Virus record (IMG/VR): IMGVR_UViG_3300037264_002513
Location: 1 to 61,600 of that record
From: a virus
DNA: 61,600 bases
Reading direction: 5' to 3' (one strand)
How positions within the stretch are numbered: the first letter of the stretch is position 1; every line of letters starts with the position of its first letter. A program made the position numbers and the translations under genes. Shown here piece by piece: positions 6,208 through 28,300 of this stretch. The notes under the pieces are model-generated. The model was not told the DNA's origin. It worked only from the letters and a program-made list of their open reading frames with translations, and did not search any database.

Positions 6208-7199
6208 CACGCCCTCCCCGCCAGCGCCTCGGCGGCATGTTTCATGCGGTCCACCGCCTCCGTCACGTCCGCGACGGCTTCGACGAGCACCTCCCGGAGT
6301 TCCTCGGCCTTCACCCCCGGCGCCTCGCACAGGCAGCTGAGGATGCGGAGACGGAAGGCGACCACCTTGTCGAGGTCGGGCAGCACCTCCTGCCGCGCCT
6401 TCTCCCGGCGCTCAGCGGCGAGCTTGGCCTGCTGCGCCGCTTCCTCGCGCCGCAGCCGCTCCTGGCGCTCGCGCTCGACCGCTTCGTTCAGCCGGCGCTG
6501 CTCCTCAAGAGCCTTGCGCTCGGCCTCCAGGCGCGCGGCCTCCGCCCGCTGCTCCGCCGCGATCTTGGCGAGCTCGGCCTCCTTGGCCCGCTGCTGCTCC
6601 GCCTCGAACTGCTGGCGCGCCTTCTCGGCCGCTACCCGCTCGGCCTCCCACACCCGCTGGCGCTCAGCCTCCTCCTGGCGGGCCTTCTCCTGCGCGGCTT
6701 CGAGGGCCTTGCGCTCCTCCGCCAGCTTGGCCCGCTCCTCGGCGAGGCGCTTCTCCTCCGCCTCGCGCTGGGCGCGTGCCTCCGCCTCCTGGGCGGCCCT
6801 ACGCGCGGCGATCTCCTCTTCGAGCGCCTTCACCCTCGCCGCTTCCTCCGCGGCCTTCTGGCGGGCAGCCTCGTCGTCGACCGCCTGCTTCTTAACCCGT
6901 AGCGGATCCTCGATGCCAGCCACGAGCGCGGTGAGGCGCTGGGCCTCGGAGTCGACCAGACGCCCGAACCGGAGTGCGTCCGCCTTCAGCAGCGTTCGGC
7001 GCTTCTCGATCGCCGTGCGGGTCGACCGCAGCTTGCCGATGGCCACCCGGATCTCTTCGTAGCCATCGGGGGTGTCGGCCGACATGGCCGCGCAGACCTC
7101 GCGCATCTGGGCGAGCGCCGCCTCGTTGACATCGTAGACAACGAGCGCCGCGGCGGCATCCGGCACCGGCGTGATGATGAGAGGGGTATCGGCGCTCAT
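6207..7199 (-). CDS. Long coiled-coil protein of the recombination module, 330 aa
   Basis: Residues ~100-275 are an almost unbroken run of Glu, Lys, Ala, Arg and Gln with heptad spacing, clearly a long coiled coil. Both ends are more globular: the start (SADTPLIITPVPDAAAALVVYD) with a following K-x-R-T-A-I-E-K-R-R-x-x-L-K-A-D-A helix, and a C-terminal helical segment ending ALAGRA. The start part resembles the N-terminus of RecT-associated phage proteins of the DUF1351 kind, which follow or precede annealing proteins. It starts inside the stop of the FEN/RecT-like gene (ATGA), so the two are translated together. A role as scaffold or partner of the annealing protein is inferred. Confidence 0.65.
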   Translation of the reverse strand: MSADTPLIITPVPDAAAALVVYDVNEAALAQMREVCAAMSADTPDGYEEIRVAIGKLRSTRTAIEKRRTLLKADALRFGRLVDSEAQRLTALVAGIEDPLRVKKQAVDDEAARQKAAEEAARVKALEEEIAARRAAQEAEARAQREAEEKRLAEERAKLAEERKALEAAQEKARQEEAERQRVWEAERVAAEKARQQFEAEQQRAKEAELAKIAAEQRAEAARLEAERKALEEQRRLNEAVERERQERLRREEAAQQAKLAAERREKARQEVLPDLDKVVAFRLRILSCLCEAPGVKAEELREVLVEAVADVTEAVDRMKHAAEALAGRA

Positions 7200-8725
7200 C
7201 GGCCATGCTCCAGTTCCTCCGGCGCGTAGAGCCCGTGCACTACGTCCGGGTAGACCAAGCGGGCCAGCTTCGCGCTGGCGCGGGCCACGCACATATCGGC
7301 CGGGTTCTTCGCCCAGGCTGAGGCGCTCCAGGCTTTCTGCCGTGCGCCGTCTGAGGGGTTGTCTCCAAACCAGGCCTGTCGGCCCTCGGCGAGGGTGAAG
7401 GTCAGGGCGATCTCAGGATCGCCGACGCGCTTGGTCGCGAAGGTCGCGCGCTCAGCCGTGCGCTCAGTGCAGCGGAAGTACTCCGCCAGACCGGAGCGGA
7501 GCACCATCGCCCGCAGGAGGTCAGCGGACAGCGTCGCCTTGCCTTCGATGATATGCACGGCTCTCACTGACGCGAACACCGTGAGTCCGAGCTCGCGACC
7601 GGCGAGGAAGGTCATCAGAAGGGCCTGCCACGTCGTGTAGGAACCACCCCAGAGCCGCGAATCGAACGCCGCCTGTGCGAGCCAGGTCGCCTGCGTCATC
7701 GTGTTCGGCTCGAACTTACGCTCGAACTCGACATCGACGACGTTGGTCGCTACGCGCGCCAGCTCCGTCGTCGTCGGCAGCGGTGGGAGCGGCTTCAAGA
7801 CGGCTGCGTCGGACACGGGAGGGGCCTCCGGGAACGTGATCGTCAGTTCGCCCCCGTTTGGCGTCTGGACAACCGGCGGCGCGACCGGCGCGCTGGCCTC
7901 CTCCTCCGGTGGCGGCGGCGTGGGCCGGGAGGCCGGCGGCTTCTCGAGCTCCGCGATCGGGAGCTTCACATCGGTGCGAAGCGCGATGAGGGCCCGCACC
8001 AGCGGCAGCCGCAGCTTGAACCCAACCAGGGCCTGGACGATGGCCGGCGTCAGGCCGCGCGCGACGCCGCGGTCGAGGTCCACGTACATGTCGTCGAGCG
8101 ACTTCCAGGCCTTCAGGATCTGCACAGCCCGCACGGGGCCGCAGCCCTTCAGGCCCTGGATGTTGTCCGACGCGTCGCCGACGAGGGCGAGGTAGTCACG
8201 CATCTGGTACGGCATGACCCCGAACTTCTCGAAGGCCGCCGCCTCGTCATAGACTTCGCCCTGCCGCGGCGTCTTGACTTTCACGCGGTCGGTGACCAGC
8301 TGGAGGAGATCCTTGTCGCCCGACACGATGAGGACGGACGTGGTCGGCGGCAGCTGGGCCACCAACGAGGCGATGATGTCGTCCGCTTCGAAGCCGGGGA
8401 CCGCCCACACCGGCCAGCCGTCGGCCCGCAACAGATCCTGCGCGAGCTGCAGCTGGTGGAGCAGTGAGGCATCCTTGTCCCGGCGGTTCGCCTTGTAGCT
8501 GGGGTCCAGCTCGTGGCGGAACGTCTGCCCCGGGGAGTCGCAGCAGACCACCACGCGCCGCTCGCCCTCACCGAGGGCCAGCTGGTGGACCTTTGCCGCC
8601 GTCGCGTTCGCGACGTGGTTGAGCTCGGCGTTGTCCGCCGAGGTCATGTAGATGGGATACAAGATCGAGGAGAGGTCGACGGCCACCACGAGGGGCGGCG
8701 TCTCGGGTACAATAGGTTCTGGCAT
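7196..8725 (-). CDS. 5'-3' exonuclease (FEN/PIN) fused to a RecT-like annealing domain
   Basis: Residues ~10-235 are a flap endonuclease/T5-type exonuclease: VAVDLSS (Asp17), CCDSPGQTFRHELDPSYKANR, GFEADD (113-116), VSGDKDLLQLV (Asp137, Asp139) and the helix-3-turn-helix LVGDASDNIQGLKGCGP. A Pro/Glu-rich linker (~250-330) leads to a second domain, ~340-505, with LAGRELGLTVFASVR, IIEGKATLSADLLRAMV and VYPDVVHGLYAPEEL. That layout matches RecT-type single-strand annealing proteins that read G-R-E-x-G, G-K-x-x-x-x-A-D and P-D-V-x-x-G-x-Y-x-x-E-E. The exonuclease makes 3' single strands and the annealing domain would pair them, which two phage proteins usually do separately. The frame is continuous across the linker. 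The exonuclease call is very safe; the RecT-like call is from motif memory. Confidence 0.82.
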   Translation of the reverse strand: MPEPIVPETPPLVVAVDLSSILYPIYMTSADNAELNHVANATAAKVHQLALGEGERRVVVCCDSPGQTFRHELDPSYKANRRDKDASLLHQLQLAQDLLRADGWPVWAVPGFEADDIIASLVAQLPPTTSVLIVSGDKDLLQLVTDRVKVKTPRQGEVYDEAAAFEKFGVMPYQMRDYLALVGDASDNIQGLKGCGPVRAVQILKAWKSLDDMYVDLDRGVARGLTPAIVQALVGFKLRLPLVRALIALRTDVKLPIAELEKPPASRPTPPPPEEEASAPVAPPVVQTPNGGELTITFPEAPPVSDAAVLKPLPPLPTTTELARVATNVVDVEFERKFEPNTMTQATWLAQAAFDSRLWGGSYTTWQALLMTFLAGRELGLTVFASVRAVHIIEGKATLSADLLRAMVLRSGLAEYFRCTERTAERATFATKRVGDPEIALTFTLAEGRQAWFGDNPSDGARQKAWSASAWAKNPADMCVARASAKLARLVYPDVVHGLYAPEELEHGR

Positions 8726-11777: not shown

Positions 11778-13055
11778 TCACCTGGTCGCTGTGATGCCGA
11801 CCGCGTGAGACGGGCTGCTCGAGAGAGTCAGCAAGGGTCGATCGAGCCCAGCCCGACGCGCGAGGCCTTCGAGGCCATCGGGCTGGAGGTTGTCGCTGTA
11901 GGCATACAACAGGAGCGTGCGCCACGGCGCGAGGCAGTGTTCGCGCACCACTGCGGCGCGCTCCGGCGGCAGCTCGAGGAGCCGCCCCGGCATCAACAGT
12001 ACTGTGTCGGGGCTCCACTCGGCCCACGGCACATGTCCGATGTCGCCCGTCATCCACTCCCCGCCAGCGAGTCGGATGATGTCAGGCTCGCGCTCCACAC
12101 CCAGCGTCTCGATGGCGCCGACATCCCGCAGGATGCGGTCGAGGAGCATCCCGTTTCCGGCCCCCAGGTCGACGACGCGAGATTGACCCGGCACGAGGCG
12201 GCCCCGCAGGGCGGCGACAATCGCGCGGTGGGCAGCCCGCATCGGCCCGGGGGCCGAAAACCCGTTCTCCGTCCACCACCTGGCATCCGCCGGTCGGTAC
12301 GCGCCATCGCGGGCCAGCCGGTCAGTGTGCAGGGTGTGGTCAGTGCGCGTCGAGATCCGCATGGCCGGCGTCGAGATCCACGCGATGCCGTGCAGCCGGC
12401 TCCACTCCATCGGCCAGGCCAGCATCTCGACCGCCTCGTCCGTTTCCCACCGATAGCCCAGTCGCCTTGCCGCCTTGAGCGCGTCAGAGGCGAGCGCCTT
12501 CGACATCATGCAGGCGGAATCGCAGGGAAGATGTGGGACGAGGCGGACGCCAGCCCATCGCAACCAGATGTTGATGAGGGGTGGCCCAGACGCGCCGGCT
12601 TCGAAGGTGCTGTCGACTTGGCCCTTGCCCCATGTCTGACAGAACGCCCCGCGACAGCACACGGGGTAGCCCAGGAGTTGCCCGACCTTGCCGTCGTCGC
12701 GCACCGCGAGGGCGTTGAGTAGGGCCCGCGCGTTCTCCGGCGCAGCGACGATGACCCGGTATTGCCAAGGCCCGCCAGGCACGAGCGCGCCCTCGCAGGA
12801 CGTGTAAGGCTGCGCTGACACGGGCACCTGGCGCGGCACCACGGCGAGCCCGTGCCGCACGCCCCACTCCGCCAGCGCCGGGAGCTCGTCGGGCGAGCAG
12901 TGCTGGTACGCCGCCTGGCGCACACCATCCACCACCAGTTGGCGCTCGACCTCGAGCCAGGCGCGCCCCCAATCCTGCCGCACCGCTTCCCACCAGGCGC
13001 GAGACGCCTGGTCGCGATACGCGATGCGCGTGAAGTCAGGCAGCTGTGGGCTCAT
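11778..13055 (-). CDS. DUF483-like Cys domain fused to SAM-dependent methyltransferase
   Basis: 425 residues in two parts. Residues ~1-235 resemble DUF483-type proteins: LLGYPVCC (127-134) with a following FC, and HLPCDSAC (175-182); the paired Cys motifs suggest a metal or Fe-S site. Residues ~270-425 are a class I SAM methyltransferase with VDLGAGNG (295-302), the acidic loop VEREPD and a downstream TGDIGHVPW. The start overlaps the stop of the radical SAM gene as ATGA, so the two enzymes are made together. Between the parts lies TRTDHTLHTD, a small echo of the His-x-Asp pattern. I infer a partner enzyme in the modification of the repeat protein encoded at 14309-15544. The methyltransferase fold is safe, the DUF483 link is from motif memory and the role is inferred. 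Confidence 0.75.
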   Translation of the reverse strand: MSPQLPDFTRIAYRDQASRAWWEAVRQDWGRAWLEVERQLVVDGVRQAAYQHCSPDELPALAEWGVRHGLAVVPRQVPVSAQPYTSCEGALVPGGPWQYRVIVAAPENARALLNALAVRDDGKVGQLLGYPVCCRGAFCQTWGKGQVDSTFEAGASGPPLINIWLRWAGVRLVPHLPCDSACMMSKALASDALKAARRLGYRWETDEAVEMLAWPMEWSRLHGIAWISTPAMRISTRTDHTLHTDRLARDGAYRPADARWWTENGFSAPGPMRAAHRAIVAALRGRLVPGQSRVVDLGAGNGMLLDRILRDVGAIETLGVEREPDIIRLAGGEWMTGDIGHVPWAEWSPDTVLLMPGRLLELPPERAAVVREHCLAPWRTLLLYAYSDNLQPDGLEGLARRAGLDRPLLTLSSSPSHAVGITATR

Positions 13056-14308
13056 CGGCCGGAATCTCCATGACTGTCACCGTGCGGCGAGTCCCCGTGC
13101 CCAGAGTCCCCGTGGCGCGGACGGGTGTGGTCGGTGTGATCGCCGTGGCCGTCGCCGTGGCCGCCATCCCGCGGTGCCCGTCGTGTGCCGCAGCTCGAGC
13201 CCAGCACCGCGTCTGATAGGCGGGGCGTGTCGCCGCGCGCCCACGCTTCGTGCATGTACCGTTCGTAGAGCGCCCGGTGCGGATGCTGAGTCACCGGCAC
13301 GATGCCGGCGCGGCGGAGCCGCCGCTCGCCCTCCGCGTAGAGGTGTTTCCACACCGCGCAGTACGCGTCTTTGTTGCGCCAGTCACCGTCGATGGCCCCG
13401 CCAGGGCACGCCCCGGTGCAACAGATCCAGTAGGGGCAGCCTTGGCAGCCGCCGTGATCTTGCGGGGTGACTTCCAGCGCGAGCTGCCGCTCGTAGGAGT
13501 GGCCGTCGGCGGGGGTCCACGGTCCACCCGTGAGGACGCGTCCGCACATCGAGGGTTCGCCGTCAGGCTCGATGCCGTTGCAGCTGGGCGTATTCCATGG
13601 GTCACAAGACCGATGGTGGCACAGCACATGATCGTCTTGACCCTGCAGGACGCGCAGCACATCGCTGAAGATCGACAGCGTGAGGTCGGGGCTCTCGTCC
13701 TGTAGGGCCCAGAGCGCGTCAAGCACCGACATCAGATCCGAGTCTGGCAAGACAAGCTCAGGGGGGCCGTGCCGCTCAAGTAGGTGCGGGTTGATATGTC
13801 GGATGCCGCGATGGCGGAGGCCACGAACCCACTCGAGGAACCGCGCCACGCGCTCGCTGGTCCCCACGTTCGCCGCAGAGAGCGTGATGATGAACGAGGG
13901 CACCACGCCAGCCTCAAGGAGCGCATCGATCGCCGCCTCGGTCTTTGCCGTCTGCTGCACGCCACATCGGGCGGCGTTGAGGTCGCCAGGGCCGTCGATG
14001 CTGACACCTACCCCGACGCAGTACCGCTGGAAGAGCACGATGTGCGCGGGCGTGATCAAGGTGCCGTTGGTCTGGATGCCGGAGTGCCCGAACTTCTGGT
14101 GACCGTACGCGAAGAACTCCTCGAGCTCAGCCAGCGACGAGAGCAACGGCTCGCCGCCAAACAGATGGAAGCTCCCGCCCAACCGGTCGATCTGCCGGAA
14201 CATCGCGGCCTTGTCGAGCGGGATGCGCTCCCGGCGGTCGTGCTGTTCATAGCAGTACGCGCAGGCGAGGTTACATCGATGCCCGACGAGTTTGATCTCG
14301 ACTGTCAT
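13052..14308 (-). CDS. Radical SAM/SPASM maturase-type enzyme with His-Gly-Asp tail
   Basis: 418 residues. CNLACAYC (Cys12, Cys16, Cys19) is the C-x3-C-x2-C motif for the radical SAM iron-sulfur cluster; FGGEPLL (50-56) is the GGE motif, SIDGPG (103-108) a further core strand. A SPASM-type auxiliary cluster region follows with CGRV (255), CQGCPYWICC (288-297), C301 and C317. SPASM enzymes mature ribosomal peptides and proteins (sactionine, cyclophane and other crosslinks, anSME). The last 36 residues (383-418) are low complexity with seven His-x-Asp motifs, mostly HGD, the same motif as in the protein encoded just upstream. The ATG follows the TAG of that gene without a gap. I infer that the repeat protein is the substrate. 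An alternative is a general SPASM enzyme acting on another target. Confidence 0.9.
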   Translation of the reverse strand: MTVEIKLVGHRCNLACAYCYEQHDRRERIPLDKAAMFRQIDRLGGSFHLFGGEPLLSSLAELEEFFAYGHQKFGHSGIQTNGTLITPAHIVLFQRYCVGVGVSIDGPGDLNAARCGVQQTAKTEAAIDALLEAGVVPSFIITLSAANVGTSERVARFLEWVRGLRHRGIRHINPHLLERHGPPELVLPDSDLMSVLDALWALQDESPDLTLSIFSDVLRVLQGQDDHVLCHHRSCDPWNTPSCNGIEPDGEPSMCGRVLTGGPWTPADGHSYERQLALEVTPQDHGGCQGCPYWICCTGACPGGAIDGDWRNKDAYCAVWKHLYAEGERRLRRAGIVPVTQHPHRALYERYMHEAWARGDTPRLSDAVLGSSCGTRRAPRDGGHGDGHGDHTDHTRPRHGDSGHGDSPHGDSHGDSGR

Positions 14309-15544
14309 CTACGCTCCTATCAGGCTGGGGTTCGCTACGGCCTCGGCATCGGCGTGGTCGATGTCGGCGTGATCCGTGTCAGCGTGCGTATTCGCGTGGT
14401 CGGCATCGGAGTGGGCAGAGTCGGTGTGGGGCACAAGGTCGCCGTGCGCGTCAGAGTGGGTGTTCTGATGGTCGATATCTCCATGCGCTTCGTCCTGGTA
14501 CAGCTGGTCTTGGTGCAGCGTATCTGCGTGGGTGTTCGAATGCGCGTCGGTGTGCACGTTCAGGTGGTCGCTGTCGAGGTGCTCCTGGTCCACATGGGTC
14601 ACGTCCCCGTGCGTGTTCTGGTGCAGCGTATCAGTGTGGGTGTTGAGGTGCGGCCAGTTTTCGTGGGATACGTCGTCGTGATCAGTGTAGGTGTCGGACC
14701 AGTCATCATGGGTGTTCAGGTGGTCGCTGTCGAGGTGGCCGACGCCCTGGTTGGTATGCTCGTCCTGGTGACCGGAGTCCTCATGGGAGTCCGTCCAGTC
14801 GGTGTAGTCCGCGTAGTTCCCATGGAGGACATCCTCGTGGATGTTGGTGTGCCCATCGAGGTGATCGGTGTGGTCCGTATAGAGCTTCCCCCCGCCCAGA
14901 TCGATGTAGCCCACGTTCGCCCAGTCTCCGTACGTGTCCTGATGCTCAAACACCGGAGGCGTGTCGGTGTGCGTGTTCGTATGGGTGTCGGTGTGGTCGC
15001 GGTCAGCGTGGGGGACATTGGTGTGCACCGCATCCGTCCACGCGCTATACGTGTCAGCGTGGAGGACGTTGGCATGGCTCTGGTCCTGGTGCTGCGTGTC
15101 GACGTGTTCGGCATCCGTGTGGCTGGCATCACTATGGGCGTCGCTGTAGATGTCTCCATGTTCGATGTCAGCGTGCGCGACGTTTCCATGGGTATTCTCA
15201 TGGACGTTATCTTGATGGTCGACGTTGCCGTGCGCCACATCCTGGTGACCCCAGAACTCCTCGTGGTCGCTCTCCGCCAGCCAGTGCAGCTGCGCGCCCT
15301 CGATCCAGAGGGATCCCGCCGCGCCCGCTGGGGTGCCCAGCGAGGGGCCGTAGGCTCTGTATTCGTTTGAGGCGCTCTCGTTGATCCAGTGGAGGTAGTC
15401 GCCCTCGATCCAGAGGCTCCCCGGGGCCGCCGTCGCGACCGCCGCAGCGACCCATTCCCCAGCCAGTCGCCACTCGATGCGGGAGGCGTCGATGTAGTGG
15501 AGGTTGTTCCCCTCCACCCAAAGGGAGCCGGGGCGTTTCGCCAC
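14309..15544 (-). CDS. His-x-Asp/Asn repeat protein with fibre-like N-terminus, probable substrate of the radical SAM enzyme
   Basis: 411 residues, GTG start directly after the TAA of the previous gene. The N-terminus has three copies of GSLW(I/V)EG-x2-LH(W/Y)I starting at residues 6, 42 and 77, a strand-turn repeat like those at the start of phage fibre proteins. From residue 100 to about 402 it carries roughly fifty His-x-Asp or His-x-Asn motifs every four or five residues (HQDVAHGNVDHQDN, HADTDHADIDHADA), almost free of Cys, Lys and Arg. A non-repeat island around VGYIDLGGGKLYTD breaks the array. Such density of His and Asp suggests a metal-binding or regularly modified solenoid. Placed after a fibre-like gene and before a radical SAM/SPASM maturase, it is most likely a virion surface protein that is modified after translation. 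No described family is recognised. Confidence 0.85.
   Translation of the reverse strand: MAKRPGSLWVEGNNLHYIDASRIEWRLAGEWVAAAVATAAPGSLWIEGDYLHWINESASNEYRAYGPSLGTPAGAAGSLWIEGAQLHWLAESDHEEFWGHQDVAHGNVDHQDNVHENTHGNVAHADIEHGDIYSDAHSDASHTDAEHVDTQHQDQSHANVLHADTYSAWTDAVHTNVPHADRDHTDTHTNTHTDTPPVFEHQDTYGDWANVGYIDLGGGKLYTDHTDHLDGHTNIHEDVLHGNYADYTDWTDSHEDSGHQDEHTNQGVGHLDSDHLNTHDDWSDTYTDHDDVSHENWPHLNTHTDTLHQNTHGDVTHVDQEHLDSDHLNVHTDAHSNTHADTLHQDQLYQDEAHGDIDHQNTHSDAHGDLVPHTDSAHSDADHANTHADTDHADIDHADAEAVANPSLIGA
14339..15247 (-). repeat. Degenerate tandem repeat coding for H-x-(D/N)-x(1-2)
   Basis: The DNA follows a 12- or 15-base rhythm, His codon, variable codon, Asp or Asn codon, then one or two more. Copies differ at the wobble and variable positions, so the motif is kept at the protein level and not by recent DNA copying. 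The array is broken near its middle by a ~20-codon non-repeat island. Confidence 0.85.
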
Positions 15545-16366
15545 TTAGATCTCCGCGTACTTGTCCGCACCAACAGGAATCACAAGGCGGTTGCCCGCGT
15601 TGGACAGCCGCACGATCGGCGACCGCGCAAACTGCGTCGCCGACGTGGCCATCAGCATGTCTCCCGCCGCTTGCCCGACCAACGCCAGGCCCCCGGCGCG
15701 CACGGCCGCGATCTCGACGTTCGTCGGCTGCACCACGAGGCTCGAACTCAAGTCCGCGACGCCCACCAGCCGCCGATACGTGGGCGCGGTCGACGTGATG
15801 GCCCCCACCGTCGCGGAGACATAATACGCCACCCCGGGACTCAGTCCAACAAACCCCGTGACACGCCCTTGGAGCCGAACGGCCCCCGTCGCTGCAGAGG
15901 CGATAGCCGTCGGCGCCAGGCCCACCATCCCCGCCTCGCTCGAGCTCGCCAGCACATCCGCATCGGCACGGTACCACCGCCCCGCCGTCGTGCCGCCCGC
16001 CCCCGCACTGAGATAGACGACATCGCGCGCGGCGATGGCCTCACCGGCAATTCCCTCGATGTCCACGTTCGCGTCCCACGAGGCCGGCGCGATCAGGTTG
16101 TCTTGCGTCCGCAACACCACATCGTTGGCGTTCGCGAAGATGAGCTTGTAGCTGGTCGGGAGCCAGAACATGACGCACCGGCCGGCGGCGTCGCAGATCA
16201 CGGGGTTCGGGTTCGGGATCGTCCCCGCCGCATCTGAGTACGTCGGCAACGCGTTGGCGGGCCAGGTGCCGCCCGCCGACAGCGTGTAGATACGCGCCCC
16301 AGCGATCGTGTTGCCGTTGCTGTCAAGCGCCGTGAACCACGGCGAGGGGGCGACCATGAGCTGCAT
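15545..16366 (-). CDS. Fibre/tailspike-type head-binding protein, 273 aa
   Basis: The first ~100 residues read WFTALDSNGNTIAGARIYTL, PTYSDAAGTIPNPNPVICD, GRCVMFWLPTSYKLIF and NANDVVLRTQDN, a common N-terminal module of podovirus tail fibres and spikes (F-x-x-x-D-x-x-G-x-P-L/I-x-G-a-k-v-y-T-y ... N-P-V-v-l-D-x-x-G-R). The rest is Ala/Gly/Thr-rich beta sequence with GAVRLQGRVTGFVGLSPGVAYYVS, a repeat-type structural fold. The ATG overlaps the stop of the giant gene as TGATG. It may attach the next gene's His-x-Asp protein to the particle, an inference from order. Confidence 0.75.
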   Translation of the reverse strand: MQLMVAPSPWFTALDSNGNTIAGARIYTLSAGGTWPANALPTYSDAAGTIPNPNPVICDAAGRCVMFWLPTSYKLIFANANDVVLRTQDNLIAPASWDANVDIEGIAGEAIAARDVVYLSAGAGGTTAGRWYRADADVLASSSEAGMVGLAPTAIASAATGAVRLQGRVTGFVGLSPGVAYYVSATVGAITSTAPTYRRLVGVADLSSSLVVQPTNVEIAAVRAGGLALVGQAAGDMLMATSATQFARSPIVRLSNAGNRLVIPVGADKYAEI

Positions 16367-19300
16367 CAGCGTCCTCCTTCAGCTGCCGGCTCCGCAGCCC
16401 GCGTAAGCCGGGGTTTCGTCACCCACCCGTGCATCGTCGAGGGCACCTTCACCAGCAACCCCGGGCTGACCGGCGGGTGCCGCTCGGGCAACGACGCCTC
16501 GCCGTTGGCGTAGCGAGCCATGTCGATCACGGCATCGTACAGGCGGTCGTAGATCTCGCGCTTCTCAGCAGGCGTGAGGTCAAACCGCTGGCGCACGAGG
16601 CGGATCTGCTGGGTCACGAGCCGAATCTGAGCATCCGCCCGACGCAGCCCGCTCAATTCCTGCGCGGCCTTGGCGTTCTTGGTGAGAAGGGCTTGTGCCT
16701 TGGGAATCTGGCCCTCCCGCACATACCGATTGACCATGCGCGAGTACTGCTCGAGCGACGCCTTCCGCTGCCGGAACCGTTCCAGGCTGGTCGCCTGTCC
16801 CGTCGCCTTCTGCCCGACAAACGCGCCGATGCCAGGCACGTCACGGAGCCCGCGCGAGGCCGACGGCGGCGCCCAGCCCGCCTTTTCCTCCGCCTTCGAG
16901 ACGAGGCTGGAGATGAATTGGCCGGTCGCCGAGGTGTAGCCGTAGATGATGTGGTCGAGCATCGCCGGCGCCAACCCGATGGCCGGTCCAACCTGCTTCG
17001 AGAATGTCGAGGTCCACTGTGAGTACTGCTGCTCCAGCGGGAGGTCGAGGTCGAACGGGCTGACAATCGGCCGCTTGCGGAACGTGTCGTAGTTCGCCGC
17101 CGCTTCCAGCACCGGCAAGACGGCTGTTGGAGCCAGCGCCAGGAACGCCTTGAGGAGGTCCGCGTCGCCGACGCCGGCAAACGGCAACCGCTGGATCGCT
17201 TCGGGGTCGTTGTCGACCGCCCAATCCAGGTAGGTTTCGAGCACGTTGCCGATATCGCCCACATCGAAGGGTCGAGGGATGCGGACCCACCCGCCTCGCC
17301 CATTCGGGATGTGCCAGAAGGCCGCGCGCTCCCATCCCGCCAGCTCGCGGTATTCGGGATCTTCGCGGTTCAGGAGCCACAACAACAGCCCCGGCAGGAG
17401 CCCATAGAGGAACGCCTTGAAGGCGTAGGCCGCGCGCTTGTCGGGGTCGCCCAACTCGGTGGCGATGCGCGTCCACCCGCCGATCCTCGCGCCGAGGAAG
17501 GCTTCGTAGCGGTTGTAGCGCCGCACGACAGACCCCATCTTGGCGAAGTCCTGCGTGGACTCACGCGCGGTAAACGCGGCGCGGGCTTCCCGCTCGGCCC
17601 CACCGATGCCCTGCGCGGCCAGCTTCTTCTCGGTTTCGCGGAAAGCCTGGAGGCGCGTGGCGTTGTCGCTCAGCTCGGCCAGGGCCCGCAGCCCCTCGAA
17701 CGGATTGAACACGGTCTTGTCGAGGGTGCGGCGGAGGCGGCCGTGCTGGAACTTCTTGATTTCGTTCTTCGCGTAGTCCCGGTCGACCGCAACGATGCTC
17801 GCCTGGGCCGCCTTTGCGGCACGGAACCGCTGCCAGGACTCATCGTTCTTGATGATCAGGCCCGCCGCCGCCAGCGTCTTCAGGAACGAGTGATGATAGG
17901 CGGCCTTCGTTTTGGCGTCGATGGTGTCGCGGATCGGGTTCCGCATCGCGAAGGACAGCGTTGAGGTCGCCGCGCGGCGCAGCAACGATGCCGCGCCCAC
18001 CGCGAACTTGGTGATCCAGTTCCGCGGCTGCTGCGGCTGCGCGTTGACGAGCAGCTCCCAGATCGCGTCATCGTGGACTTCGTACCATTCCCGCTTGCCG
18101 TCACGCAGGACCGTCACAATACGGGCGTCGCCCTGCGCGATGATAGCCGGCGTGAACACCGTGACCAGCGCATCGAACTCGATGTCGTTGGGAATCTCCT
18201 CGCCGACCGTAACCCCGTTCGCCGCGAGCACCGCGAGGATGGCCGACCGGACCCGATCCAGGTTGAACCGCGTCGCCACCTGTTTCATGCTGACCCGCTC
18301 GAGGAAGCGCGCGCCGCCCTCGTCGTGGATCAGGTCCACCAGTTTCAGCCTGGCGGTGTTTTCCTCGACCGTCCGCACGAAGGTAAACGTGTTCTTGATG
18401 GAGGTCACGATCGGGTCGACGATCCGGCGGGCGCTACCCGTGCGGGCCTTGATGGCCTGCGGCGTGTTCTGCTTCTTCGTCCCAGGCCCCCGGAAGGCCG
18501 CGTCGGCCGCGTCCATGACCCGCTCCCACGGCACGTAGCGGGTATTGCGCGCCCGCATCGCTTCCGCCGAGTCACGCGACAGGTAGTCGTGCTCCACCGC
18601 CCACTGGAGCAGCGTGTCCCAGTAGGCCGTCACCCGCTCGGCCGCGGTGACGAATCGCTCCGGCACCTCGGCCGCCATTGCAGCCTCGACCGTCGATGGT
18701 CGGATCCCCGTCTCGAGGCCCTGTTCGTGGTACTCCTGCGCACGGCGCGCCACGAGATAGGCCACGAACGGTCTGTAGTCCTTTCGGTTGAGCACCTCCC
18801 TGACGGCCGTGAGGAACCCCGGCCCCATGATGGTGCCGTCCGCGCGCCGAATATGGTCTTCGAGAAAGGTTTGCGCCTCGCCCGAAGTGCCGGCCAACGT
18901 GCGGAACGCCACGTAGGCGCTGCTGCCGTAGTCCTTGACCGGCAACCCCTTCTCCATCGCCTGTTCCACGCGCAGGATCGGCAGGTTGTCGTCGTTCAGC
19001 GCGTCGTTGAGCTTCTGGAGGGCATCCCTGGGGTCTGACGTGGTGCCCAGCACCCAGTCGCGGAAGCGGCTCCACCGGCCAGGCTCGCCGTTCCAGTCGA
19101 TGCGCTCCTCGAGCTCCTGTTCCGGCGTCATCGCCAGAAGGCCCTGAATCTGGGCCTGCTGCTCGCGGAAGAAGGCCCCGAGGGCCTTGTCCGAGTTGAG
19201 ATACGCCTCGAACAGGGCGGTAAACGCCGGGGCCTGCGTCGCCGCGGCCTCGGGCTCGGTGAACCAGAGGCGGAGGTATTCGGCCGCGCCTTCCTTCCGC

Positions 19301-22300
19301 TTGTACTGGCGGTCTTTCAGCTTGCTCGGCGGCGTCGTCACCTCGCCGAGGGCTTCGAGCTCGACGGCCACCGCCCGGTTGGCGCCCGCGGCGCGCGCCG
19401 GCCGGATCTGCATCACGGCCTTGTCGACGTGGTGTCCCAGCTCGTGCAGGATGACCTGGAGATCCTTCGACACCTTCGTACGAATCGCCCACACATCCGG
19501 CTTGTAGATGCCGCCGGCGCGCTGCTGGAACCGCCGCACGCTCATGGGCACGTCGGCAAAGAACTTCTGGAACGCGGCCAGGATCTCGTCCCGGTTCATC
19601 TGGGGCCCCGCCGGCCCGGGGGCGGAGGCACGCGTCGGCAACGCTGACCGGGCTGGCAAGGGCATCATGTGGCGCCGCGGGGCCCCGCCGCCCATCGGCA
19701 TCGCGTCCTCGTCGTCCTCGTCGCTCGGGGGTTCCTCGGCTGCTGGCTCCCGACCCGGCGTCTCAGGCGCTTCGTCCTGCCCAACCGACACGCGCAGCCG
19801 GCGCACCTCAGCCTCCAGGGCCTCGAGCTCCGCATCTTGGCCGAACTGCTTACCGAGCACTTCGAGGTGGCCCTTACGGTCCTCAGCCCACTGCGCCAGG
19901 CTCTTGCGGGAGAACCCGCCGAGCTTCTCCAGGGCCTCTCGCTTGGTGTGCGCGTCGAGGCTCCGGCGGTAGTCGGGCGGCACCTTCTCATCCCACTCGG
20001 GCAGCGAGGCGAACGGCAGCACCGTGCGGAGCGGCCCCCGGCGCTTCTCGCCGATCGTCGTGTCGTTCGAGAGGAACAGCTGCGGCGCCTGGATCTGAAT
20101 CCGGTCGGTGGTCGGTTCGCCGTTGACGACCTTGAACTCGTCGCGGCCGTAGGCCTGGATGACCAGCACATAGGGGCCGACGCGGCCCACGACCACGGGA
20201 TCGCTTCGATAGCTGGCGTAGCCGCTCTGCAGGATCGCCTCGAGCTTGGCCTGGAACGCCTTGCGCGCGTCCGTATCCTTCAGGTCGAAGGTCAGCGGCG
20301 TGTCCAGTTCCTCTAGGTAGAACCGTGACGGGTTGTGCGTGATGATGGCCGTCGGCTTCTTGGCCCACTCGTCCAGCACCGCGAGGTCCGCGTCGTTCTG
20401 CGCGATGCGCTCCTCGTCGCGCTTGGCCTCGGCGTCGCCGGAGTCGATCGCCCGACGGGCCTTGCGCTGCCGCTGCAGAAAGTTGACCCGCCGGCCGCGA
20501 AGCGACCTCAGCTCCCGGTCCTTGTGGACGAGCGTGAGGGCGTCGGGATTGCCGCTCGCCAGCGCCGCGGCCGTCTTCTGATCCATCTGCGCCGGGTCGA
20601 GGTCTTCCATGCTGTCGAGCTCGCCGCGATAGAACTTCGTCAGAAAGTCCTGTTTGGTGGCCAGAAGGCCCCAGCGGTATTCCTCGAACGAGCCCTTCGT
20701 GACGTACCGGACGATCTCGACCTCCTTGTTGGTGTTGCCCTGCCGGATGCCCCGCGCTTCCTGCTGCTCCAGCCAGTCTGGCCGCCAGGGCGCGTCGAGC
20801 TCATGCACCGCCACCACGCGGGTCTGCACGTTCATGCCCGTGCCCATCTTGGCGCCCGTGCCGATGAGCACCCGGACGCGACCTTCGCGCACCGCCCGGA
20901 AGAGCCGGATCTTGTCGCCTGGCTCGGGCGCCTGGTGAATGAACGCGATTTCCTGGGGCTTGATGCCCTTGGCGATGAGCTTCCGTTTCAGATCCTTGTA
21001 GAGGTCACGGCCGGTTTCGAGCGAGGCGACGGCGTCGAGCACGGTCTGTTCCTCTTCCTCGTCCGTCACGATCTCGCCCTGATCCTCGTCGACTACCATC
21101 TTGTCGGCGTCGTCGAACGCCTCGACTCTTTGCCCTCCGAGGTTGAGCGGTTCCACCGTGCGCGGAGCCCCGGCGTTGAGGAAGACGAGCTGCGTGCCCA
21201 GGTCGTCCTGGGACGCCCGGTAGATGTCCGCGATCTTGTCAGCCGCCGCCACCAGCCGGCCCTGCGGGTTCTCCGGCGCCTCCGGGTCAATGAGGCGCAT
21301 GTCGATCGCTTCGAGGCTGGCCTGCGTGTAGATCTTGAGGTGGTTGTCGTCCTTCGGGTCGACCTTCCCACCCTTCAGGGCCTCCAGGCGATCCCGAATC
21401 TCGGCCATGAACTCTTCGTGTCCGGGCGGCGGGGGCGTGGTGATGACCGTCGGGCGGCCGTTCTTGATCGCCGGCAGCGTCACCACGGGCGTCCCGTCGG
21501 GGTTCTTCGCCTCAATGAGTTGCTGCGTCGTGAAGACATCCGCGAAGCGCCAGAAGAGGCCCGTGAGCTCGCGCAGGTTCACCCAGTACCGCAACCGTGT
21601 CCGCTCCTTGTAGCCGCCCCCCGGCTTCGGCTCGCTCTCCGGCGCGGCCACCGCGAAGGCATTGGCCCAGGCGTCGAACCCGGCCATCCCGACATCAGCG
21701 AGCTGCGGTTGCGCGAGATAGCGGAAGACGGTGTAGACCTCGCTCATGGTGTTCGTGACCGGCGTGCCCGTCATGAACACGAGATTACGACTCTTCGACT
21801 GCTCGTTCAGGTAGCGGGCCTTCAAGAACATATCCATCGACCGTGCGGCGTCGCTGCCCTTGAGCCCGACGATGTCGTTCTTCCCGGTCGAGAAGTAGAG
21901 GTTCTTGAACATGTGGGCTTCGTCGACAATCAGCCCATCCACGCCGAGCTCCTCGAAGGTGACCGGCGAGCTCTTCTTCTGCTGGTCGAGGCGCTTCCGC
22001 AGCCGCGCCCGCAGATTCAGGATGGCGCGGACGATGTCCTTCACGCTGGCCGTCGTGCCACGCCCGAACAGCCCTTTCTTCCCAGCCTCCTTCGCGTCGA
22101 CCTGATCCTTGAAGTCCTCCCGCGACACGTCCGCCTGTTCGGCGCCGTTGGCGATGAGTTCGTCTTCCTGCTGCTGAATGAACGCCTTGAGCGTCGCCAG
22201 CTTGACGGAAATCCGCAGGTACTGTGACTGCGCCATCACGATCGCGTCCCAGTCCTGGTTGGTGATACGGGCGATGAGCTCCTGGCGCCGGTCTTTCTGG

Positions 22301-25300
22301 AAATCGCTCTCATCGGGCACCAGCACGCGGGCGCCGGGGTAGACGTACTGGAAGTCTGCCCGCCACTGTTCAACCAGGTGGTTCGGGACCACGATCATCG
22401 GCTTGCGGGCGAGCCCGAGGCGCTTCCATTCTCCGGCAATCGCGATGCCGGCGAACGTCTTGCCGGCGCCCACCGCGTGGGCGATCATCGTGTTTCCGCC
22501 CTGGAGCGTGCGCCAGACCACGTTCTTCTGCCACGGGTGCCACCGCAGCTCGGGGTTGGCCCCGACGATCAGTATCCGCGAGCCGTCGAACTTCCTGGGC
22601 ACCTCGCGATTCAGCAGGGCGTTGTAGATGTTCGTCAGCGTCTCGGCGGCCTTGTCGTTGTTCTTCCACCACAAGGCCCACTGTTCGCGGAGCTGCTTCA
22701 AGGACTCCCGGTACTGGTCGGTTTTCTCCTGGCTGAAGATCTTGATCGTCTCGCCATCGACCTTTTCCTCGTTGTAGATGCGCGGGAGCCTGTTGTTCAA
22801 CGCCTCGTAGGCCCACTCGACGAAGTTCGTCCCTTCGGGCATGAACTCATGCGTCCCCCCGAAGCCGTCGACGTGGAACTCCGTCCGATGCTCGTTGTTC
22901 GAGAGCTTCACGGTGAGGCTGCTCGTGTTTCCCACGGCACGCAAGAAGGACTCATAGATGTCGTCGGGCACCCACGTCGCCCCGAACGGCGCCTCGAAGG
23001 TTTCCGGCGTCTTCGGCGCCGGCTGGACCTTCTCTAGGGCCTCGACGTTCGGCTTGAACGCGGGGTCGAGCTCGGCCGCGAACTGCGCCTGCTCCAGCTT
23101 CGTAACCACGTCCCCGGAGAGATATTCCTCGCGCGTGACCCAGACCTTCGTTTTCGGCTCGAAGAAGAGCTCGCCGGTGAGGCCCTTGGTCACGGCATCG
23201 GGCGTGCTCTCGAGCAAGCCGGCCATGTATTCGAGGTCGACGTGCCCCTTCCAGGCCAGGCTTTGCACGAGGGCGTCTTGTGGCGAGGCGGCCTTCGTGG
23301 GCTCCTCGACCTTGTCCACGACGCGCTTCGAGAAGATGTCGGCGAGGCCGATGAAGTCGACGACGCGCTTCTTCCGCCCGCTGGCGTCCTTCTCGCTGTA
23401 GGTTTCCGTGACCTCCAGCGTGATGATGCGCGACGCGTTCGGGTCGGCCTTGATCGCCCGCTTGTTCTCGGTCAGCGCGATACGCCCGAACCCGGCCACG
23501 AACGCCTCGTAGGTCTTGCGGAGCTCGGCCTGCGCGGCCTTCAGCGTGGCATCGTCCTGTCCGGTGGTCATCGCGTCGAGGACGACCTGGTAGGCGTCGC
23601 GCAGCGGGATGAACGCCTTGACGCGCGCAGCGGTCTTGCCGGTCAGCGGCACCCGCTCGGTCGTCCCGTTGTTGTAGACGGCGATGTGCTTACCGTCCAT
23701 GACGTAGGAGCCGTTCTTCGAGTCGAGCGGAACGTCCTTCGCGAACTTCCGCCGGTCAGGCCGCAGCGTGGCCTTGTAGGTGTTCTTCGGGAAGCTGTCC
23801 ACGACGCGCGCCAGGTCGTCAGGCGTCATCACCCCGGTGACGTTGTAGCCGGTCGCGCGGTAGTTCATCTTCCCGCTGCGGTCCTCCTCGCCAAGGATGT
23901 TCTCAGGATGCGCGACGAAGTACTCGTTCGTGTGGATGAACTCGTCGCGGCCTTTGTCCTCGTTCCACTCCTTACCCAGATCCTCGCGCTTGACCGACTC
24001 GATCCACCCCGGGATGCCCTGCGCGAGCGTGGCGCCAGGCTCCTTCTTCTGGAGCACGATCACGTCCGTCACGACCTCGGTGCCCGCGGTTGTCTTGAAC
24101 GCGGACGAGGGCATCCTGAACGCGCCCAGGAAATGCGCGCGGTCAGCGATGTAGGCTCGTACGGAGTCGTTCTGGCTATCCATCGTGTAGCGCGACGTGA
24201 CGAAGATCACGAGCCCGCCAGGTCGAACGGCGTCAAGAGCCTTGCCGAAGTAGTAGTTGTGAATCGACCGCGTCATCAGCGCGCGCGCGGGCGACACGAA
24301 GGCCGGGTCGAACACCTCAACCTTGCCGAACGGCACGTTCGAGATCACGAAGTCGTAGAACTCGTCGGGCACGCGGGCCTCTTCCAGGGGGCTGGCCTGG
24401 ACGATGGCGCCCTGGTAGAGCTGCTGCGCGATGGCCGCGGCGACCGGCTCCTTGTCGACGCCGAAGAGGACCGTCCGCGGGTGTTCCACGATGGCGGGCG
24501 GCATGGTCCCGAAGAAGTGGCCGGTCCCGATGGCCGGCTCGAGGATGCGCCCGCCCTTGAACCCCAACCGCTCGGCCAGGCTCCACAGCGCCCGCGGAAT
24601 GTCGGAGAACGAGTAGTGCGCGTTGATGACCGATTCGCCGAGATCCTTGAGCTCCGCTGGCGTGAGCAGCCGTTCGAGCTCTTCGCGGGCCTTGCCGAGC
24701 CGGGGGTCTTTCCCGGCAAGGTCGGCCGCCTTCTTCGAGGCGACGACCGGGGCGAGGTTGGTGTGCCCCCAGCCGATGTACTTGGCGAGGACGGCCTGCT
24801 CGTCGGCGGTCGCGGGGCGCTTCTGCGCGTCGAGTTGCTTGAGCAACCGGAGCGCCGCCATGTTGTTTTCGAGTTTGCCGATCCAGCTTCCGCCGGTGGT
24901 CAGCTCTTCGACATCGCTGATACGGAAGTGCTTGGGCCGCTCGCCGCGCGCGTGGGCGGTGACCACGTTCGGATCGTCGACATCGTCGGCGGTGTCCACA
25001 TCGCTGGCATCACCAGCTCGCTCACCTGGGCTGGGCTGGCGCCCTCCCCCAACATCAGCGCCTCCTCGCCGAGGGCCGCGTCGACCGCCTCGCGGACGGC
25101 CTGCTCCACCTTCAGCTTGCCCTCCGGCTGCTGGTGCAGCTTCCGCAGCGGCGGGCTGTTCGCCAGCCACACCTTCAGCACCTTCAGCTCGAGGCCCTCC
25201 AGGGGGTTGACCGGTGACACCGGCTTCGACGGCTGGCCTTCCTCGTACACCCGCTCCCGTGGTAGACGCTGCATCGGTGCCTTCTTCCTGTACTGTCGGC

Positions 25301-28300
25301 TCCGCCGGCAGGGTTGTCAAGACCTGGTGCGTGGACACCTCCTCGGCCTCGGGGTGGAGCAGGCTCCAGCCGGCGTCGAGGTAGATGGCCATCCGTTCCA
25401 CGGTCGGTCGGCCCAGCTGGTCGATCGCCTGCCGAACGGCCTCCCCGAACTCGTTGATGCCCTTGCGCGCGTAGACGCCCAGCAATTGCACGGCGAGCCC
25501 CGCCATCTCGGGGTCGATGCCGACGTTGAGCTGGTTCATCTTGGCGCGGATCTTCGCCAGGATGGCGGCTTCCTCGGCGTCGAGGGCGGCCTTGGTCGCC
25601 TCGTACTTCGTCGGAGCGGCCTTCGTCTGAGCCGTGGTCGGCGGCTTGAACTCGGCCGGCTTGGCGGGTTCCTCCGCCTTCTCGAAGTCGATGCGCTGCT
25701 GCCCCGCGGCCTCGAGGGCGTCCCGGCGCAGCCTGGTGATGGCTCGGTCGAGCTCGGTGCTCGGCTCCAGCTCGACGCCGAGGTGACCCTCGAGGAGCGC
25801 CGAGGCGAAGCTGAGCTCGTCCTGCGTCATCACGTCCACCGCGGCGTGGTAGGCGCGGACGTACGAGTGCCCGAGCACGTCGATGATGATCTGGCCCTCG
25901 GCCTCAAGCAGCTCGCGGCCCTTCTGGCTGGTCGCGTCGGCGTTCTTGTCCCAGGACTCGATGTGCGTCAGGAGGTCGTGCAGGGCCTCATTGGTGGCGC
26001 TGTCGTAGACGAGCGTGTTCTCGCGCCAGCCGAGCTCGGCCTCCATGGAAGCGAGGTCGTCCTGCTCGTACTTGGTCAGCCCAACATTCGTCTGCGAGTT
26101 CAAGAGTCCCTTGATGTCATCCTCGAGGCCCTTGTCGCTCGTCTCGAAGTGCTCGAAGTTCGGTCGGGTGGAGGCGGGGGAGGGGACGTGCTTGGCCACC
26201 GGGGCCTTGGACTCTTCCTCTTCCCGGCTTACCGTCGGTTCGATGCGCTCGAGGCCCGAGAGGTTTGTCCACTTCCCGTAGGTCTTCGTCGAGTCGAGCA
26301 TGAGCCGGGCCGCTGGCGGGTCTTCGGTGCGGATCTGCGTGATGATGCCGCTTCCCTCGAACCCGGTGACATGGTCCCCGACCTTGAACCCGCCGACCTC
26401 CGTAACCTCCGTCTTCACGCCCTCGCGGGTCGGGATAATCGTCGCCTTCGTGAAGGTGACCGCTGGCGCCTCGGCCTTCGTTTCCTGGCGCGTAACGTCG
26501 CGGGCATCCACCCCCATCGCCAGCCCGTCGGCGTCCCTCAGTGTGAGCAGGTCGCCCCTTCTAGCCGGCTTACCAACCGTGTAGGGTTTCCCGTTGTAGG
26601 TGACGGCATCGCCAGGCTCGAACTGGTCAGCCGCAGCCCCCTTGCTGATGATCTGGTCGATGGCAGGGCCGCGTTCTACCGGCGCCGTCTCCGTCTTCCT
26701 CGGCCGCTGCACGCCCGTCACGTTGTAGACCGTGTCCTCCACGCCAGGGCCAGGCTTGTGATACCAGACCTTCGACGGCGGGCTCCAGCGCCAGCCGGCC
26801 TTCTTGAGGCCGTCGAGGACGTTCGGCGCCGGCTTGCCAGGGAACTTCAGCTCGTAGTTCCCGGCCACCGTGCGGCGGACGCCGGCCTTCGGCCCCTCGT
26901 ACCAGGTGCCGTCCGAGGCCAACATGCCGGTCGACGTGGGCGGAGGGGCGGAAGAAGGAGCCGAGGGGGCTACTTCTTCCGTGACAGACGCCTCCGCGTT
27001 TGTGAGCTGGCCCGGGAGCAGCTCATAGAGCGCCTGTCCACCTGGACTGTTTCTCGTGTGTACGTCGCGGACGCGGACGCGGACCCACTTCCCGGCGACA
27101 CCCACGACCTCGCCAGTGCGAGTGTAGGAGGCTTCGCCAGGCCGCTGGTCAATCACCGACTTGAACGTAACCCGCGTGCCAACTGCGAACTCAGCAGGCT
27201 TGACCGGCGCTGGCTCTTCGGCCTCGGCCACCTCCGCTGGCGCTTCGCCACCGACCACGCGGATCTGATGCGGTTTTGCCCGCATCGTTTCTCGATACGA
27301 TCTGGCCCCTGGCGGCCACATGGGCTGCATCACCAGCGACGGGTGCTGGACCTTCGTGCGGCCCTCGGCGTCGGTGTCCTCGAGCACGTCGGTTTTCTTC
27401 CACTCGCCGTCGAAGTCGAGGACTTCAACCTCCTGGCCCTTCGTGAATCTCCCGGGTTCGCCGGCAGGAGTGGTCGGCTCGGCTACTTCTTCTGCGGCGG
27501 GGCCTTCGGCTTGACGTGCTGCGGGAGGTGCTTCGGGAGCTCGTACTCCCGGTCCCACCGCGCCGCGATCTTCGGGTGCTTCGCGTGCATCAGGCGGAGC
27601 TGCGCTAGGCTCTTGTACGGCATCGGGTTTCTCCTGCGGGACGACATCGGGCGGCAGCAGCCCCGCCTCCTGCATCCGGCGCTTCATCTCGGCCTTGGCG
27701 GCGGCCTTCTCCTCGGCGGTCGGGGGCTCGGCCGCCGGTGGGCCAGGCGTAGCAGCGACGGGCGGAGCGACCGCCGCGGAGGAGGGCGGCGGGGGTGGGC
27801 TCGGCGGCGCGGCCGCGGGGCCACGCGGAGGCTGCTGCTGGCGGCCAGCGGGCGGAACGTGCAGCTCCCGGCCGACCATCGGGACCGGCTCGGGACCGGG
27901 CTCTCGCGGGGGCCGTCCAGACGTGGCGAGCTCGGCAAGCCCTCTGACGGTCCCAGGAACGGCGAACGCCGCGGCCTCCACCACAAGCTGCCGGCCGAAC
28001 TCGCGCATCGCCTGCGCCCGCGCAGACTCCCCATGGACCGTTTCTGCCGTCGGCTCGCCCGTGACCATGCGAAGCATCGCCGGCTGCGGCTGACCTGGCT
28101 CGCGCAGGTAGGGCTGGGCGGCGCGCATCACCTCGCCGACCCGCTCCTCGAACATCTCGCCGATGATGCCGTTCCAACCCGACTTCGTCCGCACCTGGTC
28201 GAAGAAGTCGCGGACGCCCCGATCCGGGTGCAGCTGCAGCCAGCGCGAGAGCACGGCCTCCTTGAGCGCCACGATGCGGTTGGCGACCGGGAGTTTGGCG

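Follow-up and report, generated by a model that had tools for sequence, protein, structure and literature searches.

What does a radical SAM/SPASM enzyme act on when it is carried by a phage and its gene adjoins one for a protein rich in His-x-Asp repeats? The enzyme in question is encoded in the window, by which is meant the whole 61.6-kb virus record that was analysed. Genes for portal, terminase, major head, and scaffold proteins are present in this record. On the minus strand, from 16366 to 11778, there are four consecutive genes without gaps, encoding a fibre-like protein, a repeat protein, the radical SAM enzyme, and a DUF483-methyltransferase fusion (Table 1). The fibre-like gene is directly upstream of the repeat gene, and the two meet at TAA then GTG. 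The repeat and radical SAM genes meet at TAG then ATG, and the radical SAM and DUF483-methyltransferase genes overlap by 4 nt (ATGA). The original prediction had described the last three genes as abutting in this way, and all of the open reading frames and junctions were found to be present.

Table 1. Features of the modification locus, with positions counted over the whole window.
Feature	Coordinates	Strand	Evidence or remark
Putative tail-fibre-like gene, 273 aa	15545..16366	-	Weak PHROG match of unknown function; function suggested by sequence and context
Candidate substrate, Omega-x-D/N repeat protein, 411 aa, GTG start	14309..15544	-	Homologues in Thermus phages phiMa and Cumys
N-terminal domain of repeat protein, three GS-x-W-[IV]-[ED]-G elements	15251..15544	-	Alignment
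Repeat region, 65 Omega-x-[DN] triplets	14348..15247	-	Motif count
Radical SAM/SPASM enzyme, 418 aa, predicted triplet stapler	13052..14308	-	PF04055 1.6e-13; pLDDT 88.8; fold match ChlB 9gm3
CxxxCxxC radical SAM cluster motif, C12/C16/C19	14252..14275	-	Invariant in 47 relatives
SPASM cysteines C255, C288, C291, C297, C301, C317	13358..13546	-	Invariant in 47 relatives
Disordered C-terminal tail of enzyme, seven H-x-D motifs, substrate-like	13055..13168	-	pLDDT < 50
DUF483-methyltransferase fusion, 425 aa, putative partner protein	11778..13055	-	Model pLDDT 93.5
DUF483-like domain, invariant C133-C134 and C182	12321..13055	-	Alignment of 47 members
Class I SAM methyltransferase domain	11781..12263	-	Domain match; missing from several relatives

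About fifty H-x-D/N motifs over 300 residues had been predicted for the repeat protein, and 53 such units were counted. In the 300-residue repeat region, D or N is found at +2 of 53/53 His, 8/9 Tyr, and 4/5 Trp. The motif is wider than His-x-Asp and is written here as Omega-x-D/N, with Omega being H, F, Y, or W. The triplets of the window have 53 H, 8 Y, and 4 W at Omega and 47 D and 18 N at the third position. The 65 that were observed compare with 17.1 +/- 3.1 in shuffles (z = 15.4). The nine-base units encoding H-x-D/N are distinct in 44 of 53 cases and both the His and the Asp codons are mixed, so the repeat is not a DNA tandem-repeat artefact. Of 76 non-redundant repeat proteins, 42 have GS-x-W-like elements in the 120 aa that precede the repeat. 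This N-terminal domain could possibly be a docking or leader domain or could attach the protein to a fibre. Its alignment is too diverse to scan with, and a search of phage records for the domain returned none beyond phiMa and Cumys. Opposite the repeat gene, on the plus strand (13784-15370), there is an antisense open reading frame of 528 aa that is a trap for gene finders. It is probably open because H-x-D codons lack stops on the opposite strand.

The enzyme had been described as a SPASM-type radical SAM protein, and this was confirmed by its PF04055 match, its CxxxCxxC motif, and a full set of SPASM cysteines. By its cysteines, its domain match, and its fold, it has the features of a radical SAM/SPASM peptide maturase. 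The best PDB match of the predicted structure is ChlB (E 7.3e-15, about 22% identity), and the second fold match is an anaerobic sulfatase maturase (5e-14). The window enzyme scores far below the cutoffs of the named cyclophane families XyeB, GrrM/OscB, FxsB, YhhB, and AmcB, the best of these being AmcB with 63 bits (cutoff 425). It is also not a member of the anaerobic sulfatase maturases (TIGR03942, 60 bits, cutoff 349), and no sulfatase substrate was seen among the window genes examined. Its scores against the sulfatase maturase and DynA profiles are close to those against the cyclophane families. Given the low family scores and the nearly equal sulfatase maturase match, family membership cannot settle the chemistry. 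The claim made below is that the enzyme works like a three-residue cyclophane system, not that it belongs to a named cyclophane family.

The distribution of the gene set was explored through scans of viral records. Scanning viral and genome contigs with single sequences returned no relatives, and alignment-based scans were needed. Profile scans of IMG/VR identified 66 non-identical viral enzymes (loci are given as L numbers). A repeat open reading frame, called at a cutoff of 10 Omega-x-[DN] motifs within the fetched stretch, is near the enzyme in 61 of the 66. The five exceptions are L005, L138, L143, and L145, which are truncated at a contig end, and L163, which has 9/9 motifs and is just below the cutoff. 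When the same blind filter was applied to 78 distant radical SAM loci (1.08 Mb) as a control, a single open reading frame passed. This was GrrA/OscA beside GrrM/OscB (TIGR04261, 398 bits, cutoff 310), a known three-residue cyclophane system, which indicates that the detector finds such systems where they are present.

The pairing was also approached from the repeat, with two DNA scans for H-x-D runs (spacing 4 and spacing 5) that were blind to the enzyme, although some contigs are shared with the enzyme-first scans. Most raw hits were slippage repeats or were out of frame. The spacing-5 scan yielded 32 diverse repeat loci, of which 24 have the radical SAM or DUF483 gene in the stretch. Whole records added four with the enzyme and two with DUF483, for 30/32, and the two left over (L395 and L405) are partial records. 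The spacing-4 scan yielded 16 diverse repeat open reading frames with the enzyme in the stretch and two with it elsewhere in the record (L222 and L234). The enzyme was not found in records L280 (17.6 kb), L299 (19.0 kb), and L296 (40 kb), the last of which has a repeat of different make-up. The co-occurrence search proposed earlier has therefore been run, and repeat homologues commonly lacking a radical SAM gene, which the original prediction had named as the evidence against it, were not what was found, since the enzyme or DUF483 is recovered almost always. Tandem DNA can yield repeat-rich open reading frames, as many of the raw hits did, and it could be proposed that the repeat is low-complexity sequence from DNA slippage with the enzyme as a chance neighbour. 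The distinct units of the window repeat and a rule that is kept in 76 non-redundant proteins make this extremely improbable, and the chance-neighbour proposal is refuted by the co-occurrence in 61/66 enzymes.

There are some variations on this layout. Records L347 and L374 (64-78 kb) possess the repeat protein and a short DUF483 protein (304 aa), with no recognised enzyme of this radical SAM family. In L167, L169, L170, and L174, tandem repeat proteins, up to five, are upstream of one enzyme, and some of these have collagen-like GXY.

The repeat proteins indicate what the enzyme may require. In the 76 non-redundant proteins, D or N is at +2 of His in 97% of cases, a figure that is partly due to selection. 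Outside the HxD/N units, the fraction with D or N at +2 is 0.47 for W, 0.47 for F, and 0.37 for Y, as against 0.03-0.09 for all other residues, and the enrichment after aromatics is confined to offset +2. Because the scored positions are outside the HxD/N units, this test is not circular. W, F, and Y alone precede D/N in this way, so an aromatic residue, with His counted among these, is required at the first position. Two repeat proteins have switched wholesale to Phe. That of L118 uses Phe-x-Asn (37/42 Phe) and that of L186 uses Phe-x-Asn/Ser/Gln/Asp (99/103 Phe), and both keep the same N-terminal domain as the His users. The enzyme tree places L186 as sister to the His user L187, and L119, a stand-in for the L118 enzyme with equal bit score and length, groups with the His users L110 and L134. 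As the Phe users thus occupy two branches, both lying among His users, there seem to have been at least two such switches. A DNA scan for Phe-x-Asn recovered L118 as the sole real member. Between phiMa and Cumys, the Omega sites differ by a single change, Tyr to His, and the X3 sites differ by one D to N and by one D to P that is beside an alignment gap.

The HxH motifs in the tip of the T4 long tail fibre bind iron. The repeat could likewise be a metal-binding or charge-zipper fibre, with the enzyme's job unrelated to it. The dense His and Asp are in keeping with this, and stability would benefit the Thermus members. However, metal binding is not expected of Phe-x-Asn and Phe-x-Ser/Gln, the forms used by L118 and L186, and Trp, Phe, and Tyr all occupy the His position. 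The enzyme is also almost never missing. A metal or charge fibre is for these reasons highly unlikely.

The residue rule and the pairing strongly imply that the enzyme acts on the adjoining repeats, and the locus is very probably a phage protein-modification system. That SPASM enzymes act on repeat proteins encoded beside them was the core of the original prediction, and the comparative data support it. An Omega of H, F, Y, or W indicates three-residue cyclophanes in place of the hxs systems and metal binding that it had raised. The hxs (His-Xaa-Ser) systems are alike in having radical SAM enzymes that adjoin His-x-polar repeats. They differ in having two such enzymes (HxsB and HxsC) and Ser as the third residue. 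In the window, the third residue is D/N in 53/53 His units, and HxsB and HxsC are absent among the best 25 NCBIfam matches.

The closest precedent appears to be the triceptides, in which the ring of one residue (i) is linked to the C-beta of residue i+2 by an enzyme of the radical SAM/SPASM class (PMC11002830). The characterised pairs are Trp-Asn/Asp/Arg, Phe-Asn, Phe-Ser, Tyr-Asp/Arg, and His-Ala/Arg; a His-Asp cyclophane is not among these examples (PMC11002830). The Omega-x-D/N rule agrees with the i/i+2 substrate rule of these three-residue cyclophane-forming enzymes (3-CyFEs). As with the triceptide enzymes XncB, OscB/GrrM, MscB, YxdB, HaaB, and YhhB, the phage enzyme lies beside aromatic-x-X3 triplets with i to i+2 spacing. 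The substrates are unlike. Triceptides are made from small precursor peptides with a leader and a cleaved core, whereas the phage substrates are fibre-like, of 200-1400 aa with 10-100 triplets (411 aa in the window, and up to 1471 aa in others). Their triplet density, up to one per three residues, is far beyond that of known triceptides. The phage system further differs in its DUF483 partner, its substrate-like enzyme tail, and an enzyme that is below the family cutoffs. The title of reference 13 in PMC12636437 calls ChlB (PDB 9gm3, 9gmc), which is also the best fold match, a "multiple cyclophane synthase", and by that title ChlB would make several cyclophanes per substrate. Unlike the phage enzyme, ChlB-type enzymes act on RiPP precursors and are reported as fused to an aKG-HExxH hydroxylase, a type reported to act on a preinstalled cyclophane (PMC12636437).

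The most probable reading, at about 0.75, is that each triplet of a phage fibre-like protein is stapled through a bond from its aromatic ring to C-beta, giving a three-residue cyclophane. We infer the bond, the number of bonds, the order of the steps, the location in the virion, and the benefit to be as follows. The enzyme would reductively cleave SAM, and the 5'-deoxyadenosyl radical would remove the C-beta hydrogen of the i+2 residue (Asp or Asn). The carbon radical would add to the ring of the His, Tyr, Trp, or Phe at position i, with an electron passing to a SPASM cluster, so that the ring is bonded to the C-beta. Some 65 small cyclophanes could be formed per subunit, each with the loss of 2 H (2.016 Da), or about -131 Da in total. 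The DUF483 protein would be a partner that binds the substrate or the enzyme, and the fused methyltransferase, where present, would add an optional second modification. The otherwise disordered His/Asp-rich stretch would be stiffened within a tail- or baseplate-associated fibre.

The triplets might also be modified by other chemistry, such as a bond from the imidazole N to C-beta (as in dynobactin), an ether, epimerisation, or the C-beta oxidation of sulfatase maturases. The sulfatase maturase and DynA scores and the second fold match to the anaerobic sulfatase maturase are consistent with this. The strict i/i+2 spacing and the aromatic at i best fit a ring carbon to C-beta bond, however, and the wholesale use of Phe involves a residue without a ring nitrogen. 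Such chemistry is unlikely here, though it is the most credible of the alternatives.

The third gene had been predicted to be a DUF483-methyltransferase fusion. DUF483 (PF04467) scores 17 bits in the window against a Pfam cutoff of 25 and 26.8-27.7 bits in L135, L188, and L289, and the methyltransferase half is clear in relatives. The protein is without a PDB sequence match, and a fold search with its model matched only methyltransferases. C133, C134, and C182 of the DUF483-like domain are invariant. Support for a direct partnership comes from L016, L018, and L023, where DUF483 and the enzyme form one fused protein. The methyltransferase half is optional, as it is missing in the Thermus phages and in L015. 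Asn at position 3 was considered as its target and was rejected, as the fusion and the Asn content are uncorrelated (p = 0.39).

Searches with tblastn found all three genes, with their order unchanged, in the Thermus phages phiMa and Cumys. The phage phiLo has the enzyme and DUF483, and two very large repeat open reading frames are a few kb off on the other strand. The "rSAM module" of Cumys, phiMa, and prophages, consisting of rSAM, DUF483, and an unknown gene, was described by Kolesnik et al. (2024, PMC11437467), and DNA modification was proposed for it. Its three genes are homologous to those of the window, the difference being a DUF483 protein without the fused methyltransferase. The original prediction knew of no described system with this set; this does not hold for the gene trio, although the passages available from Kolesnik et al. 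(2024) leave the repeats unmentioned and give the third gene an unknown function. A role for the pair in modifying phage DNA would agree with the homologues that those passages place near deazapurine DNA-modification genes in some cyanobacteria. The SPASM peptide-maturase fold, the near-universal pairing with a repeat protein, and the relatives in peptide (RiPP) clusters all point away from DNA, and this role is about as improbable as the metal fibre or slightly more so.

The RiPP connection comes from the bacterial relatives. The RiPP cluster of L021 also encodes a RiPP C-methyltransferase and has an open reading frame of 78 aa ending VVHVDV, and small open reading frames are beside the enzyme only in some bacterial relatives (L016, L017, and L021). 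The L019 enzyme adjoins an aKG-HExxH hydroxylase (57.7 bits, cutoff 40). For four bacterial relatives (L018, L019, L023, and L024), the fetched stretch contained no repeat open reading frame. Three of these (L019, L023, and L024) possess the enzyme and DUF483 with no repeat protein detected within 8 kb.

The repeat protein is likely to be a fibre or tail-associated virion protein, judging from gene neighbours and attached domains. In Cumys, the genes that precede the set carry baseplate and tail collar fibre annotations. The domains joined to repeat stretches include Laminin_G_3 (L193) and glycine-rich and tail-fibre-assembly domains (L265), and in L174 the repeat is joined to collagen-like sequence. 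With confidence only a little above even, it can be proposed that phages build stapled fibres, in which a radical enzyme converts a long and otherwise disordered part of a structural protein into a rod made up of tens of cyclophanes in succession and also modifies its own substrate-like tail. To our knowledge, such a covalent rod has no counterpart, and three-residue ring stapling is known so far solely from small bacterial peptides. A literature search for phage cyclophanes or radical SAM modification of virions, covering few subscription journals, found none. In the papers searched, neither the repeats nor the aromatic rule nor the wide pairing seems to have been described. If the reading is correct, this would be, as far as was found, the first case of radical SAM crosslinking in a structural protein of a virus, with a poly-cyclophane protein rod as its product. 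It provides a substrate rule that is clear over about 66 viral enzymes, and it suggests a role for DUF483 partners. The two Thermus phages phiMa and Cumys are isolated and carry the set. The enzymes, some of which are from thermophile phages, come with a natural collection of substrates that is large and spans His, Phe, Tyr, and Trp.

In the model of the window enzyme, pLDDT is below 50 from residue 381 onward, and HGD is among the H-x-D motifs of the disordered C-terminal tail, a feature that the original prediction did not mention. A tail with at least two Omega-x-[DN] motifs is found in 59 of the 66 viral enzymes. It may be a tethered substrate that is self-modified or that serves processivity. 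In L099 (9508-11448), a 647-aa enzyme open reading frame bears 25 motifs and is an apparent enzyme-substrate fusion. The enzyme open reading frames of L138 and L145 each have one TAG that is read through, hinting at TAG recoding, sequencing error, or decay.

Two other open reading frames of the window may be mentioned. A single one of 4483 aa (16366-29817) is helicase/methylase-like and, when read by eye, resembles DarB-type virion proteins. Another (7196-8725) matches the N and C domains of 5'-3' exonucleases, and its C-terminus weakly resembles RecT (E 0.014), so that it could possibly encode an exonuclease-annealase fusion.
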